In this document: positions 52,199-59,475 of the stretch, one piece after another
How the letters are laid out: the number at the start of each line of letters is the position of its first letter
How positions within the stretch are numbered: position 1 is the stretch's first letter
From: Aspidapion aeneum
Taxonomy: Eukaryota > Arthropoda > Insecta > Coleoptera > Brentidae
Reading direction: 5' to 3'
Assembly: GCA_963576565.1 (NCBI GenBank)
Contig: OY755045.1
Coordinates: 1,673,477-1,737,476, forward strand
Length of the DNA: 64,000 nt
Position numbers and translations under genes: made by a program
Notes under the pieces: generated by a model
Seen by the model: the letters and a program-made list of their open reading frames with translations, nothing else
What the model was told of the DNA's origin: nothing
The model's database searches: none

Positions 52199-52589
52199 CC
52201 TAATAAGCTCGAAACCGGTCGTGAATTGACATGGATCACTGTACCTGCATCCTGTCAGGATCTGTTCCACAAAAGGAATATTATCGTGAATATCTATGTG
52301 ATCGACGAACGTTGGAAAAAATAAAAACCACAGAGTTTTAGCCCTATGTAAGCTTATTTTATTTTACCATTTTTGGAGAAAAGGATAATTAAATTGCCCA
52401 TCTCTACTCTAAATTGGGTTACGACGACGCTCGGACGATATTTTAACAAGTAAAAAAAGTAGAGTCACGTAAAATACGCCTCCGACTTTATCAAGAATAT
52501 AAGAAAGGTCGGAAACTTCCGTCGCAAAAAAAATGCTAAATAAATAGATTGCCTGAGAAGAAAAATTTGGTCTTTGGACCAGTGCAGTG
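52199..52589. other. No feature recognised
   Basis: Short unassigned stretch between the Harbinger element and a retrotransposon scrap. Confidence 0.4.
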
Positions 52590-52735
52590 TAACCAGAAAA
52601 TGACTATAAAGCAACAACATCAATATAAATCCACGAAGGAAACAAGCCAATCCGCATAAGAAGAGGTGCCAGCCAAGGTGACACAATAATTTCTAAACTA
52701 TTTAACCAGGTCCTAGAAGATGACAATAGTTACAT
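52590..52735 (+). pseudogene. Non-LTR family 1 RT scrap
   Basis: CATCAATATAAATCCACGAA, CCAAGCCAATCCGCATAAGA-like sequence and GGTGACACAATAATTTCTAA match 17440-17545 and 13010-13110 (protein IHEGNKPIRIRRGASQGDTI; RT motif 4 region). Confidence 0.7.
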
Positions 52736-52784
52736 AAATCATTTAATTACTCCTAAATATCTTCATTTTTAACAAAACAAAAAT

Positions 52785-52950
52785 CGGGCGGAAATGTAAC
52801 TTTTCAGCACTAGTGCGGAAAATTTACTTTTTCTACGACCGTGCATATATACCCACTTTCCCGCACGCATTTTAGTTATGAAAGCATCACTTTCCCGCCC
52901 TAGTGCGGGAAAATCACTTTCCCGCACTAGTGCGGGAAAGTAAAACTATG
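52785..52950. repeat. Palindrome cluster at the 5' side of YR element A
   Basis: CTTTCCCGCAC and its inverse GTGCGGGAAAG alternate. 52916-52941 is a perfect 26-bp palindrome with 13-base arm ACTTTCCCGCACT. 52889-52914 is a second, one base off. Three further half-sites lie upstream (52795-52870). Alternating inverted 11-13-bp arms are what tyrosine recombinases bind, so these may be recombination or transposition end sites (inference). Confidence 0.8.
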
Positions 52951-53283
52951 CCAATTTTGGAGTTATTCTATAGGTTTATACCTCAAAAGTCGTAACTATC
53001 GACTTGGTACAGTGTAGGGAATTTAGCAGATAGGCAATCTGATGAATTATAGCTCATTTCAAGTTTTTTATTCAATTTAAAAAAAAAACAGAATAATGGA
53101 TTTTTTTAAATATTTCTGCATACCCCCCGTATAGTCATGTCATACAACAACTATCAAGCCAAGCTGTGACAGGTGCTTGGTCCAGTTTGCTATGGCAACC
53201 AAGTTATGTTATTGTTACTTAAACGTCAAAGCTAGTCAAAGAGCGTCTCTGAAGTGACAGAACTGCCTTTTATTTTGAATAAA

Positions 53284-54393
53284 ATGGATTTTTCAATGGA
53301 CTGTTCTGAAGATGAACTTCCGGAGTGCATTTTGCAGGCTGCTGAAGATGTGAATGGTGAGCTGCTACCGGCCAAATCGAGACAAAGGTACGAAAAACAG
53401 TACAATCATTTCGTGACATGGTGTAAGGAGAAAGGGGTGAGAATCTACAAAGAAGAAGTCTTCTTGGCATACTTCCTAGACCTGAGCAAGGTCTTGAAAT
53501 CGAATACCTTATGGTCACGCTATTCCATGGTGAAAAGCTTGGTTAAAATTAAGCAAAATCTGGACATAAGCAGATTCCACAAGCTAACATCGTTTCTTAA
53601 ACAAAAAAATGTTGGTTTTCGAGCACAGAAGGCGCAAGTTTTCACCAAAGATGATATATCGCGGTTTATGTTAGCTCCTGATGAGATTTATTTGATGATT
53701 AAAGTGAGTACCATTTTTGCTTTGGCTGGTGCTCTCCGCAGGGCGGAGCTTTTAAATATCACTCTGGATGACACACAGGATAAAGGAAGTCTGATCGTTG
53801 TTAAGATCTCCGACACTAAAAATCATTCCTCAAGATCCTTCGTTTTATCCGAAGAAATAAATAATGGATCTCTTTTGATGCTGTATAGAAAGTACGCAAA
53901 TTTGAGACCTCCTACTACTCCGCACCGCCGGTTTTTCATTTATTATAAAAAAGGAAAATGTTCCAATCAGTGTGTAGGAGTGAACACTTTTGGAAAGATG
54001 CCATCAGAGATCGCTGCATATTTGCGCCTACCTAACCCAGAACGTTATACCGGCCATAGCTTCAGACGTTCTTCAGCAACATTCCTAGCAGATTCAGGTG
54101 AAGGCATAACAAACATAAAACGCCTTGGTGGGTGGAAGTCCACTGCTGTCGCTGAGGGGTATTTGGAAGATTCCGAGAAACAGAAAGAGAACATCTCGAG
54201 TCAGATTCTTTCATCTACCTATGACCTGCAATCGTTACCAGCACCGTCATCGTCAACTGTAAGTGACCTGCAACTGCTGCCGTCAACGTCCACTGGAAGA
54301 GCCCTGCAGACCCAGACGCCATCTTTGCGCACTTTCGATTCTACAAGATGCGAGAATTACCACCATCGAACTCCACTACACCGGCAATTCTGA
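53284..54393 (+). CDS. Tyrosine recombinase of a Crypton-like transposon (element A)
   Basis: 369 residues from the Met of MDFSMDCSEDELPECIL. A Met ten codons earlier is also open, but the paralogue at 55581 starts at the equivalent MDF. The N-terminal half (SRQRYEKQYNHFVTWCKEKG to KQKNVGFRAQKA) fits a core-binding SAM-like domain. The catalytic domain has Arg152 (GALRRAELL), Lys179 in the hairpin (SDTKNHSSRSF), His258 and Arg261 (GHSFRRSSAT), Trp284 (LGGWKST) and the nucleophile Tyr293 (AEGYLEDS), nine residues after the Trp as in known YR enzymes. It should cut and rejoin DNA strands through a 3'-phosphotyrosine. The last ~50 residues are Ser/Thr/Pro-rich. A conserved tail (LQTATNCVFNI) follows in another frame at 54370-54450, so the 3' end has a frameshift. 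No RT or RNase H nearby, so not DIRS-like. Confidence 0.85.
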   Translation: MDFSMDCSEDELPECILQAAEDVNGELLPAKSRQRYEKQYNHFVTWCKEKGVRIYKEEVFLAYFLDLSKVLKSNTLWSRYSMVKSLVKIKQNLDISRFHKLTSFLKQKNVGFRAQKAQVFTKDDISRFMLAPDEIYLMIKVSTIFALAGALRRAELLNITLDDTQDKGSLIVVKISDTKNHSSRSFVLSEEINNGSLLMLYRKYANLRPPTTPHRRFFIYYKKGKCSNQCVGVNTFGKMPSEIAAYLRLPNPERYTGHSFRRSSATFLADSGEGITNIKRLGGWKSTAVAEGYLEDSEKQKENISSQILSSTYDLQSLPAPSSSTVSDLQLLPSTSTGRALQTQTPSLRTFDSTRCENYHHRTPLHRQF

Positions 54394-54525
54394 ATAATCT
54401 TCAAACTGCAACAAATTGTGTTTTCAATATCACTATTACCAATAATAATAATTAGTATTTTATTTATGTTCAAATAAATTTTTCAAAAGTAAATTTGTGG
54501 TATTGTAACATCGGTCGAAGAAAAA

Positions 54526-55266
54526 ATAATGTTCCTAACTCATGCGGAAAGTGTCTTTCCCACCCTCGACTGCTTGCCCGAACTCCGCTCCGCATCGTTC
54601 GGGTCAACTGCAGTCGCGTGCGGGAAAGTATCACTTTCCACACTTGTTAGGAAAATAACTATTTCCGCACGATTTTTTTACTTTTCCAATCGATTTTTTG
54701 TGCCCGGAAAAATAATGAAACGGGTTTTTTTTTATCATGATATATTAATAAGAAATTTTATGTAAAGAACATTTAATTAACAATAACGAAAAAGTTAACG
54801 ATGGTAAATATTGAAATTGAAAGTGCACTTTGTGTGTGTTGCATGCTGCAATATAGCAGATGCCGCAACATCTTGAAGAACGTCGTTTCTTATTTGAATC
54901 TGATTGGTTGGTGTTTGCCCACTACAGAAATGCCTTGATCAGTTTGCTGCTGAGAATTACTATTGGTCTGTACAGGCTGTAATACATTACAGGATTCTTC
55001 CTTCGGTGCTTCTGGTGGCATCGGTACAGCAGCACTTCTTGAAAATGAAACTTGTGTGTAGGAAGACGAGTTTTCATTTAGAAACGATTGTGAATAGGAA
55101 AATACATCTTTCCAAATGAAAAATCGTGCGGAAATAGTTATTTACCTAACAAGTGCGGAAAGTGACCCTTCTCCGCACGAACGGCAGTTACACGAACGAC
55201 GCGAAGCGGAGTTCGGAAAGGCCGTTAAGGGCGGAAAAGACACTTTCCGCGCGTGTTAGGTACAAT
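54526..55266 (-). mobile_element. YR element C, internally deleted with inverted terminal blocks
   Basis: The terminal blocks 54526-54685 and 55112-55266 are inverted copies of about 150 bp. Each block itself begins CCTAAC and ends GTTAGG around GTGCGGAAAGTG and its inverse, so palindromes are nested. Between them the minus strand reads the tail of a YR protein (about 55110-54797), ending LQHATHTKCTFNFNIYHR, which matches the ends of A (LQTATNCVFNI) and B (LQNATHCTFNFHI). The catalytic region is gone, making this a MITE-like derivative. Confidence 0.65.
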
Positions 55267-55267
55267 A

Positions 55268-56995
55268 TTTTTCCTACTTGCGTAAAAAACTTCTTCCGAC
55301 ATAATGTATTTTGTATTTTTTTTGACAAATTATGTTTTCGTTTTAGTTTTAAAATTCAAGTTCATTACTATAATTATTTTATTTTTATTTGCTTTCATAA
55401 AATCACCAAAAAAGGTAGCGGCGTAAAAAAAAAATTTACGCACGCCGTGCGCAAAAAATTTTTTTACGCACGCTACCTTTTTTAAAAATTTTGTAAAATA
55501 ATTCCAAATTGATATTACAAACATTGCAGCAAGTGTCATTTCAGCGTTATTTTCGGTTTATCTACAAAGTTTTCTTTGAAATGGATTTCGACGACAGCGA
55601 TATTGAACTTCCAGACAGTATTTTGAATGACGCAGCATCGGCGAGGGAGGAATTAGTTCCAGAAAAGTCCCGCTCGAGATACGAAAAAGAGTACCACGCT
55701 TTTGAAGATTGGTTAAAAGCAAAGAACACTTCATCGCTACAAGAAGAGGTATTTTTGGCCTATTTGTCAAAGAGTTTCGTGCCTAGCACGTTATGGTCAA
55801 AATTTTCAATGCTTAAAATGTGTATAAGACTACGAAAAAATATAGATATTGGGCGATATTATAACTTAATATCATTTATTAAACGAAAAAATGTCGGTTT
55901 TAAACCAAAAAAGTCTCAAGTACTGCAAAAAAATGAGACCGATAAATTTTTGAAAGACGCTCCCGATGAGAATGAATGAACAAGGTGGCCACAATATTCG
56001 GCACTGCAGGAGCCTGCCGAAGAGCGGAGTTAGCGAATTTACAAGTATCCGACATCAAAGAGAAAGGCTACATCCTGGTGGTAACAATTTCAAACACTAA
56101 GAACCATACTTCAAGGAGTTTTGTGGTCTGCGATCCCAACAAAGACGATATAAGCTATATCAACATCTACAAAAAATACAAAAATTTGCGACCACCTGAC
56201 ACACCGCACCAACGGTTCTTTGTTTCCTACCATACCGGTAAATGCTCGAAGCAAGTGGTTGGTATAAACACATTTGGCAAGATCCCCGGTAACATCGCCG
56301 GGTTTCTTAAGCTGCCAAATCCGGAAACTTATACGGGCCATTGTTTCCGACGATTTTCTGCCACAATGTTGGCCAATGCCGGAGCAAATATAACCAATTT
56401 GAAGCGACATGGTGGGTGGAAGAGTGCGTCAGTAGCCGAATCCTATGTGGAAGAATCCGAGGAAAACAAGAAAAAAATTGCAACGCAAATTTTGCAGAAA
56501 AAAAGTGACACAAATCAGGAGACAGGAGAACGCCAACCATCCACCTCAGTACTACCCTCCACCTCAGAACTACCATCCACCATAGCACTTCGATCCACAT
56601 CAGTGCAAAGAAGCACGAATGCAGAAGCAACGACAGTGTTTCCATCAATGACGACGACTAATACATCGATACAATCTAAAAACCTAACAAAAGTGGCGGC
56701 GTCAGCATTAACATTACAAAATGCGACGCATTGCACGTTTAATTTTCACATTATGCGTTAAACTTTTTTAATTTTTCGAGTAGTTTTTAGTTTTTTTTTC
56801 ACTGTTTCCGTTACAAATAAAAATATAAAACAAAAAAAGTCTAAATTTACTTTAATATGCAAAGCGTGCGTAAAAGTATTTTTTACGCACGGCGTGCGGA
56901 AAGTTCAACTTTCCGCACGCAAATGCGTGCGTAAAAGTGCACTTTTACGCACGCAAGTAGGAAAAGTTACTTTTCCGAACGCTTGTAGGTAAAGG
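55268..56995 (+). mobile_element. YR element B with palindromic ends
   Basis: Left end near CCTACTTGCGTAAAA (55276), right end the inverse region ending TTGTAGG (56988-56994). A large palindrome with TTTACGCACGC arms lies at about 55409-55483, before the gene. After it lie 56892-56920 (29 bp, arm GCGTGCGGAAAGTT) and 56925-56954 (30 bp, arm GCGTGCGTAAAAGTG), both perfect. The arms differ from those of A (GTGCGGGAAAG), so each recombinase may have its own site (inference). Confidence 0.65.
55581..56761 (+). pseudogene. Tyrosine recombinase of element B, frameshifted
   Basis: Starts MDFDDSDIELPDSILNDAAS and is about 45% identical to A by eye. It runs in frame to DAPDENE (stop 55977-55979). The catalytic part resumes in another frame at MNKVATIFGTAGACRRAE (55976). 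Against A, five bases stand where nine are expected, so one small deletion explains the break. The second part keeps Arg (ACRRAEL), Lys (SNTKNHTSRSF), HxxR (GHCFRRFSAT), Trp (HGGWKSA) and Tyr (AESYVEES), followed by a Thr/Ser-rich tail with repeated LPSTS-type units and the conserved ending LQNATHCTFNFHIMR. All catalytic residues remain, so inactivation is recent. Confidence 0.8.
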
Positions 56996-57359
56996 ATTTT
57001 TCATTTCTGATTGCATAACCTTTTTCATTGCTAAGATTAGTCGCAAGGCAAAATTTACTATGCCAGAGTGTTGTAACAGGGGTAAATCAAGTAGGAGTGG
57101 TCCGCAGATAACGAAAGGACGTTATAGGGGTTACAGACAGATGAACAGCGTAATAAATGCTTGCGTCCATTGCGACCCAAATTTTACGAGCTTTGGTTAG
57201 TAAAGTCACTGAGATTTAGTGGGTCACTGGGACTTTGAGGGAAGATGTTGCTTTTTAAACATACAGGATGTTTTACAATGGTTATTTTAAAACCGGAGGG
57301 GTTGCCATAAGGATATTCATCGATATACCTGGATTCAGCCAACAAGAAATCTTAACTCA
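56996..57359. other. No gene recognised
   Basis: A 46-codon Cys-containing frame at 57061 (MPECCNRGKSS...) has no recognised family. Confidence 0.35.
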
Positions 57360-58160
57360 ATCATTGATTATGCTATAGGTGGACCAAACTCGCAATTAAA
57401 GTGGTATGATGTGCGAACACTTCGTGGTGTTACCTGTGGATCTGACCACCATCTGATAAAGGCAAAAATATTATTCCCTTTAAGAAAAACAAATAAGGAC
57501 GAAGGTATTAGAGAAAATGAAAACCTAGAATGTATCGAAGACAATCAAAAATACAACTTTAGAAGTCTAGAAATCGAAAGTACTCAAAGATTGTATCAGA
57601 ACCCATTAGATGAAAAATTAATAAACACAGAACACTCATTTGAAGAGATATATATACAAACATAATAAAAAGCTTAAAGGAAGCAAGTAACGAAGCTGTT
57701 GGATACCAAGACAATAGAAATAACAGGAAGATGTGGTTGACGGAGAAAATACAGGAAATAGTCAAAGAGGAAAAACGCACATACTTTAAATGTCTCAGTA
57801 CTAAAGAGCCAAGAGACCTAGAAATCTACAGGGAAACCAGAAGATAGCTAAGAAATTTGATACGCACAGAAAAAAATTAAATGTTCGAGCGCAAATGCCA
57901 CGATTTAAATACACACGTAGGAGGTAGGCAGAGTTGTGAAGTATGGAAATTCATTTCTACAGTAAAAAACCCAACAAAAGAAAAAATAAACATCCAGATC
58001 ATCAAACCAGAACAATGGACAGAACACTACAAGGGACTGCTGCAGGAGACGAGACCCGAATATCTAGCAGCCTCTCCGAGGAGAGACATAGAAGTACAGT
58101 CGTGGACTTAATAAATCGCCGCTGCCGTTTTCAGAAGAGCTTGGATAAGAATCCCAATAC
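57360..58160 (+). pseudogene. Non-LTR retrotransposon endonuclease end and RT linker
   Basis: DVRTLRGVTCGSDHHLIKAK (57405-57470) is the last motif of the APE-type endonuclease, with the catalytic SDHH. A linker follows (KYNFRSLEI, then after a frame change MWLTEKIQEIVKEEKRTYFK) and the pre-RT segment (VWKFISTVKNPTKEKINIQI, WTEHYKGLLQETRPE) to about 58110. RT itself is missing. Several stops. Confidence 0.75.

Positions 58161-58436: not shown

Positions 58437-59475
<1,039 letters not shown>

Follow-up and report, generated by a model that had tools for sequence, protein, structure and literature searches.

Polar junctions and a folded end in Crypton transposons of a beetle: one-strand exchange, as in bacterial integrons, could explain their movement

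Two different Crypton-like tyrosine recombinase (YR) transposons, each with both its ends present and each sitting in the palindromes of an older relic, lie between positions 52,785 and 56,995 of a 64,000-nucleotide stretch of the genome of the beetle Aspidapion aeneum (contig OY755045.1, assembly GCA_963576565.1), hereafter called the window. The crossover, the form of the target, empty sites and a strict polarity of the junctions could be read from many young copies, and to these is added a covarying folded end. It is proposed, with a probability of roughly 0.6, that the Crypton integrates as a circle by exchange of a single strand, the fold at one of its ends setting the polarity, and one-strand exchange as in bacterial integrons could explain the movement of animal Crypton transposons. 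The two ends of each element are unlike. The S-end is the one whose spacer is fixed; it combines an imperfect hairpin, of 118–120 nt in most cases, with this 6-nt spacer, which is TAACTA in families 1 and 2 (represented by elements 1 and 2 of the window) and TACCTA in a third family of the same genome. The other end, the V-end, starts TTTTC, has palindromes inside and comes without a spacer of its own.

Of 3,921 first-look candidates in the protein search of the 1.286-Gb genome, 111 places were scored at no less than 96% identity, among them that of the window. The preliminary description had spoken of Crypton-like YR DNA transposons, which is supported, and neither of the conditions that it named as refuting applies: the recombinase genes exist in many copies, unlike single-copy genes of the host, and the palindromes are parts of the elements. 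Seventy of the 111 scored copies were sampled from the top of the list, with the window's copy included and with three intervening places skipped (on C16, on C115 and at C5:1353529), and both ends were recognised in 59 of the 70 loci (excluded were L027, L037, L042, L047, L049, L057, L060, L066, L070, L071 and L074). Family 1 has a median length of 1,846 bp, begins TTTTCTACGACC and terminates CTTGTTAGGAAAA-TAACTA, and it is young, since the 59 copies differ from their majority sequence by a median of 0.38% (range 0.16–1.06%). The S spacer is exactly TAACTA in 53 of the 59 loci, TACCTA in two, and TAATTA, GAACTA, TAACCG and TATTTT in one each; in this count L030 is represented by the spacer of a small unit behind it, its own also being TAACTA. 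On the V side the same 59 loci present 38 different hexamers. The targets resemble AAAA-N6-TTTT, with a T-arm of roughly TTYYNT. In the base profile of 55 copies (L030, L054, L063 and L072 left out), AAAA is followed by six bases weakly conserved bar the final T and then by TTTTC, while on the S side TT is followed by pyrimidines, and the sixth base is a T.

Because the bias introduced by the choice of copies had to be removed, genome-wide patterns with a free hexamer were also used. The pattern for S junctions matched at 527 places, and the V pattern, which fixes the AAAA and TTTTC arms together with the following V-end bases, at 119, the control giving 0 in both cases; spacers were read for 100 of the 527 S matches, all on contig C1, and for 100 of the 119 V matches. 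Among the 100 S matches listed, 48 spacers are TAACTA and 20 TAGCTA, so that 68 are exactly TARCTA and 86 lie within one mismatch of it. Among the 100 V matches listed, there are 68 different hexamers and one TAACTA, which belongs to a tandem pair on C4. The self-complementary spacer TAGCTA (20/100) marks a second S-end group among the matches listed.

The other two families follow the same plan. In family 2, whose protein is 51% identical to recombinase 1 and whose element begins TAGTTA-TTTACCTAAC and terminates CGCAAGTAGGAAAA, the order of the ends relative to the gene is the reverse of that in family 1, its left end being the reverse complement of the end type on the right of family 1. Junctions were taken from 10 of its 147 rows. 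The left one was readable in nine (one unreadable) and always gave TAGTTA, with which the window copy agrees; the follow-up junction pattern presupposed TAGTTA, which was first seen by reading the junction sequences. The right one was readable in seven (three unreadable), all of them different, which makes eight different spacers with the window copy. Family 3 (L001–L008 and L115), a high-copy family of about 2.5 kb whose catalytic domain shows 44% identity to that of recombinase 1, has the V-end TTTTCAACCG and the S spacer TACCTA in all eight readable junctions of its nine loci. Its gene is split over two frames of 168 and 241 aa, which suggests an intron. Since the S-end precedes the gene in family 2, the polarity in the copies read is tied to the type of end and not to the direction of the gene.

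Empty sites were predicted as the left flank through the hexamer joined to the right flank. The site of L048 has an exact match on the minus strand of the window, while L023 and another place in the window match it with one mismatch; that of L068 is found with one mismatch in L090, and that of L033 with two in L062 and four in L007. The best match of each of these three is of equal length over 25–37 nt. For L020, the joined flanks are continuous with a repeat family, in which four of seven paralogues agree at all 19 nt spanning the crossover, the remaining three having small changes, and indels occur further upstream. At the four sites the crossover shows neither a duplication nor a loss of bases, and the target hexamer stands on the V side. 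As judged from the genomic copies, insertion neither gains nor loses target bases, the target hexamer staying by the V-end and the element's own spacer by the S-end. No empty site for family 2 was found in the sequence examined.

The junction of a head-to-tail pair of family 1 reads GGAAAA-TAACTA-TTTTCTACG, as predicted for a circle. In the whole genome, an S-end closely precedes a family-1 V-end at four places, in three of them with exactly four bases from TAACTA to CTACGACC (control 0). These pairs suggest a circular intermediate, the same head-to-tail sequence being also expected from insertion into an existing S junction. The S spacer is directly followed by another such element in 5 of the 59 loci, recognised at L040, L056 and L062 by a match to a known V-end and at L024 and L030 by reading; the followers at the latter two are small units, about 295 and 409 bp long, with their own S-end. 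Moreover, a palindrome or end motif of the superfamily lies within 40 bp of 10 of the 59 insertion sites, compared with 5 of 443 flanking windows, and existing junctions, being of the form AAAA-N6-TTTT, seem to be good targets. At L065, the V junction of a family-2-type end has received a family-1 copy, the two V-ends adjoining each other.

The S-end carries, at the site of recombination, an imperfect sequence able to form a hairpin, a feature of the attC type. When 120-nt windows at the ends were folded against shuffled sequences, z was -8.5 (first 120 nt) and -6.1 for L011 of family 1, -5.8 and -11.6 (last 120 nt) for element 2 of the window, and -3.4 and -8.0 for L003 of family 3. Interior windows clear of the end arrays gave about -3.8 to +2.0, except for -5.5 at the internal palindrome of element 2. 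The outermost pair was determined in 58 distinct S-end candidates: 37 of them, from families 1 and 3, have a span of 118 nt and a gap of 10 nt, and six, from family 2, have a span of 120 nt. An alignment of 15 sequences, from the three families and two small units, supports a fold common to the three YR families with 38 pairs, 13 of which have changes on both sides; 98.0% of the cells are paired, against 34–47% when the partners are slid by 1–3 columns, and none of 500 shuffles scored as high on any of five measures. The base stem (ACCTAAC...GTTAGGT in family 2) includes part of the S half-site and stops two bases from the spacer. Since this structure follows the gene in families 1 and 3 but precedes it in family 2, it belongs with the junction and not with a transcript.

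In the mechanism proposed, the element would move as a circle whose junction would consist of the S-arm GGAAAA, the spacer TAACTA and the V-arm TTTTC, and this circle would recombine with chromosomal AAAA-N6-TTTT sites. Only one strand would be cut and exchanged, always the one cut at the border between V-arm and spacer, in integration as well as in excision. The product of integration would be the target A-arm with the target hexamer, the element from V-end to S-end, TAACTA, and the target T-arm; excision through the same strand would give back a circle with TAACTA and restore the empty site. We infer that the same strand is used in both directions because the S spacer is inherited unchanged. 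The intermediate would be resolved by replication or repair, instead of by a second exchange across unmatched spacers, and the S-end hairpin, folded in single-stranded DNA or extruded as a cruciform, may set the polarity as attC does in integrons.

Several observations weigh against this proposal. The case rests on genomic footprints, not on a circle, a single-stranded intermediate or an enzyme activity. Six of the 100 S spacers among the matches listed differ from TARCTA at three or more positions, and two of the 59 family-1 loci carry TAACCG or TATTTT; such deviant spacers may reflect decay or a rare exchange of the other strand. The V spacers of family 3 consist mostly of T (five different ones in seven readable junctions), and this side is therefore a weak test of polarity. 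The empty-site matches of L019 and L009 are too diverged to be exact. As regards the fold, 15 of the 58 S-end candidates have another span (13–124 nt), truncated copies and chance pattern matches among them. Of the 13 double changes, nine occur only in the single row of family 3 and four separate family 1 from family 2; the covariation thus amounts to few independent changes in related rows, and the slide control is flattered because the structure was derived from the same alignment. Changes on one side only are without strand preference (five G.T against four A.C cells). Compensatory changes may have other sources: template switching corrects palindromes and can thereby maintain pairing in the absence of selection, and a dyad may be bound as double-stranded DNA. 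Finally, the crossover lies outside the base stem, unlike the attC site.

The observed polarity has also to be confronted with ordinary double-strand YR recombination, in which two exchanges 6 bp apart would leave heteroduplex junctions that repair or selection then resolves one way. A dyad target with a 6-nt spacer is indeed a classical YR site, the predicted fold of the recombinase is closest to Cre, and Tn916 and Tn1549 combine A/T arms with crossovers of 5–7 nt and tolerate varied crossover sequences, as far as the available parts of PMC5871717 and PMC11838328 go. Nevertheless, two exchanges with unmatched spacers imply heteroduplex junctions, whose random resolution would leave about half of the copies reversed, which is contrary to the 53 of 59 loci with TAACTA and to the 86 of 100 matches listed within one mismatch of TARCTA. 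There was also little time for selection against the other form, because the 59 copies are only about 0.4% (median) from their majority. In Cre- or Flp-like systems, moreover, unmatched spacers block the second exchange, and double-strand recombination is regarded here as unlikely. Strand-biased copy-out of a double-stranded circle, as proposed for the bacterial SE elements and Tn554, would account for polarity in another manner, leaving to the hairpins a role in accessory binding, cruciform bending or regulation. In the available parts of PMC9345347 and PMC10214605, SEs too put the 6 bp of the target on one side and those of the circle on the other, their circles are reported as double-stranded, and the main texts make no mention of a hairpin. 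In SEs, however, the 6 bp of the donor's left flank enter the circle and the attR spacer changes with each move, whereas the S spacer here is constant, and four core genes stand against the one recognised here; copy-out of this kind is consequently considered rather improbable.

Two further explanations concern the end structures themselves. They could act as RNA, as a terminator or as a regulatory hairpin within the transcript, with the polar spacers owing to an unrelated cause; in families 1 and 3 the S hairpin does come after the gene, and a hairpin would form in RNA too. In family 2, however, the homologous structure is upstream of the gene, in the opposite orientation, and still adjoins the fixed spacer. 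No Rfam family reached its gathering score in a scan of positions 52500–57200, and three sub-threshold miRNA matches (E 0.002–0.009) fall on the palindromes at 52886–52945 and 55388–55500, away from the S-ends, so that an action as RNA is judged very improbable indeed. The preliminary description had read the ends as arrays of inverted arms bound by the recombinase, a model in which they would serve as terminal inverted repeats do. Motifs such as GTGCGGAAA do recur near both ends as inverted pairs, and such motifs are preferred as insertion sites (the 10 of 59 sites against 5 of 443 flanking windows already mentioned). Yet an element's two ends do not resemble each other, the long hairpin adjoining the crossover and the fixed spacer being at one end only; the crossover arms (GGAAAA and TTTTC) are outside the palindromes; and the V-end palindromes look different across the three families. 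The arrays of arms, and with them the palindromic inverted ends, are thus not supported and are considered highly doubtful, and one-strand exchange guided by a folded S-end is retained as the preferred reading.

Within the window, element 1 of family 1 occupies 52829..54661 on the plus strand, with the V-end TTTTCTACGACC... on its left and the S-end ...GTTAGGAAAA-TAACTA on its right, as defined by copy comparison and by the tandem copy junction at L099; its termini are TTTTCTACG at 52829 and TAACTA at 54661. To its left come the target A-arm AAAA (52819–52822) and the target-derived spacer TTTACT (52823–52828), which make up the V junction on the plus strand. The V-end (52829..52960, plus strand) holds subterminal palindromes, including a perfect one of 26 bp at 52916–52941, the recombinase 1 gene extends over 53284..54393 (plus strand), and the S-end hairpin (54532..54653, plus strand) has the base TTCCTAAC ... 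GTTAGGAA, the window copy folding like the other family-1 copies. The fixed spacer TAACTA (54656..54661, plus strand) is followed by the target T-arm TTTCC. Element 2 of family 2 (55135..56965, plus strand) has its S-end on the left and its V-end on the right, as given by copy junctions, with the termini TAGTTA at 55135 and GTAGGAAAA at 56965. Its fixed spacer (55135..55140) reads TAACTA on the minus strand, and next to it lies the S-end hairpin (55143..55262, minus strand) with the base ACCTAAC ... GTTAGGT. An internal palindrome (55409..55483) stands upstream of the gene; in this copy and in L079, L083, L085 and L089 its centre varies in length among similar copies, as expected of an unstable palindrome. 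The recombinase 2 gene (55581..56761, plus strand) is frameshifted here into two overlapping frames, and the V-end (56863..56965, plus strand) comprises three hairpin-forming palindromes and the arm CGCAAGTAGGAAAA (56952–56965), with the target-derived spacer GTTACT of the V junction at 56966..56971 (plus strand).

Both insertions were received by an older, reduced YR element with palindromic flanks, the middle part of which remains at 54662..55134; other remnants, their extent judged by eye, lie at about 52785–52822 and 56972–56993. The third, reduced copy of the preliminary description is recovered only as a relic of this kind, a 42-residue C-terminal recombinase match on the minus strand (54929–54807, tblastn E=0.002) between the two insertions. 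The palindromes listed there are present in the sequence, those at 52916–52941 and 56925–56954 as perfect ones and that at 55409–55483 also as described, and the one at 56892–56920 turns out to be near-perfect. They do stand near both ends of the copies read, but as termini of the elements they had to be rejected, since the ends defined by the copies lie elsewhere and the palindrome at 52916–52941 is about 90–110 bp inside element 1. The inverted blocks of 150 bp are real as well (54519–54677 and 55119–55275, 80–90% complementary) but do not bound one element: the first is the right-hand end of element 1, the second the left-hand end of element 2, and the two face each other across leftover host sequence.

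Both recombinase genes of the preliminary description are there. Recombinase 1 is an open frame of 369 aa that matches Pfam PF00589 (Phage_integrase) with E=4e-12, and R152, K179, H258, R261, W284 and Y293, which we take to be its catalytic positions, are invariant in 48 aligned proteins. Its predicted structure (pLDDT 87.5) has Cre as its best match in the PDB, with the integron integrase 2a3v at rank 33 and Tn1549 Int at rank 44. The gene had been called intact in all five catalytic positions, and it does keep the catalytic residues; its C-terminus, however, departs from the common form, because most other family-1 copies match only up to residue 358 and have longer frames, of about 409 aa. 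Many of the 147 genome rows of family 2 have an open frame of about 435 aa. Each 1.8-kb element has one long gene with PF00589; the other open frames are of at most 113 aa and lay outside the PF00589 search.

Elsewhere in the window, degraded reading frames lie to the right of element 2 (57380–58000) and are presumed to be LINE-like from an SDHHLI motif, and a TGTC-type microsatellite of about 350 bp (58567–58911) is visible via its translated frames. Related tandem repeat units with a spacing of about 115–120 bp occur in opposite orientation at 115–541 and 58987–59408, and the family-1 copy L048 sits in another array of this repeat.

Regarding their affiliation, a tyrosine recombinase is the sole recognised gene of these DNA transposons, and they have neither terminal inverted repeats nor target-site duplications, as follows from the unlike ends and the four empty sites. 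DIRS membership was rejected, there being no other open frame above 113 aa in elements 1 and 2 and no reverse transcriptase recognised. The closest relatives of recombinase 1 outside this genome are 74–84% identical, and the best named ones are YR proteins of longhorn beetles (Exocentrus, Anoplophora and Molorchus) and other insects. By the features tested and by these mostly-insect named relatives, the elements fit the insect Crypton group (CryptonI), and the distinct lineage once thought possible is not shown. Pattern matches in other genome contigs (29) and in viral contigs (12) gave no confirmed relative. A 337-aa YR match from the longer-frame group was discarded as a relative, since it belongs to a separate element, L112/L113, which is a DIRS-like retrotransposon by its RNase H-like frame and this 337-aa YR; its copies on C7 and C6 are 99% identical over 2,276 bp. 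A further candidate family, C69:9904 (L114, C69:8800-11400), was likewise set aside, as it resembles a bacterial-type phage integrase on a 33.5-kb contig that is probably bacterial contamination.

In literature searches that did not extend to subscription papers, no work was recognised in which the recombination site of animal Cryptons is defined or one-strand exchange is attributed to them. With the junctions described here, a simple assay could test the Crypton mechanism. Should one-strand exchange prove true, these would be, to our knowledge, the first eukaryotic transposons in which a tyrosine recombinase works in this way, and a tool for DNA insertion that needs only short A/T targets could perhaps be obtained.

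Among known systems, DIRS and Ngaro elements are YR retrotransposons with a reverse transcriptase; they share the YR enzyme with the elements described here (1.8–2.5 kb), in which no reverse transcriptase was recognised. The nearest description is that of CryptonI by Kojima & Jurka in 2011, in which 50 copies of the Rhodnius element and its derivative were compared and no terminal repeats were found; in the available part of this source, no recombination site is given for animal Cryptons (PMC3212892). CryptonI shares with the present elements the single YR gene, the lack of terminal direct or inverted repeats, the insect hosts and the non-autonomous derivatives (PMC3212892, as available); to that description are added here the site, the fixed spacer, the polarity and the S-end fold. 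Tn916 and Tn1549, which use a circular intermediate, resemble the elements in their T-run and A-run arms about 6 nt apart and in their dispersed AT-rich targets, according to the available parts of PMC5871717 and PMC11838328. The circle junction of Tn1549 is, however, reported as heteroduplex and variable (PMC5871717, in part), whereas here the S side is fixed and the V-end variable. The SE elements and Tn554 also depend on a YR, their strand exchange is biased, and a 6-bp spacer regularly comes to lie on one side; the SE donor's flanking 6 bp travel along, while the elements here keep their own S spacer, and four core genes in SEs compare with one long gene in 1.83 kb (PMC9345347 and PMC10214605, as far as available).

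The closest parallel to the proposed exchange is offered by integrons, where, in the available part of PMC2727003, only the bottom strand of the folded attC is exchanged. The long imperfect hairpin at one end (57–142 nt in attC, mostly 118–120 here), the base stem followed by an internal loop, the polar junctions with one-strand exchange as their proposed explanation, the insertion into a double-stranded partner site and the head-to-tail accretion of cassettes all have their counterpart here (PMC2727003, likewise in part). In attC the crossover falls in the GTT box (R' box G/TT); here, by contrast, it follows TAACTA and is 8 nt away from the consensus base stem, on its outer side. The base stem of family 2, ACCTAAC...GTTAGGT, fits the consensus of the integron R boxes, RYYYAAC...GTTRRRY, while family 3 is without a GTT box. 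The boxes of attC contain AAC and GTT (PMC2727003, same part). Integrons differ, furthermore, in that the element here carries its own recombinase, exists as dispersed copies aimed at dispersed A/T sites and has no separate platform with attI. With these differences in mind, it is suggested tentatively, at somewhat less than even odds, that animal Cryptons may be a eukaryotic counterpart of integron cassettes, in which a tyrosine recombinase would act on a folded end, single-stranded or extruded, by one-strand exchange, and elements and small non-autonomous units would pile up, as cassettes do in an array, head to tail at S junctions.

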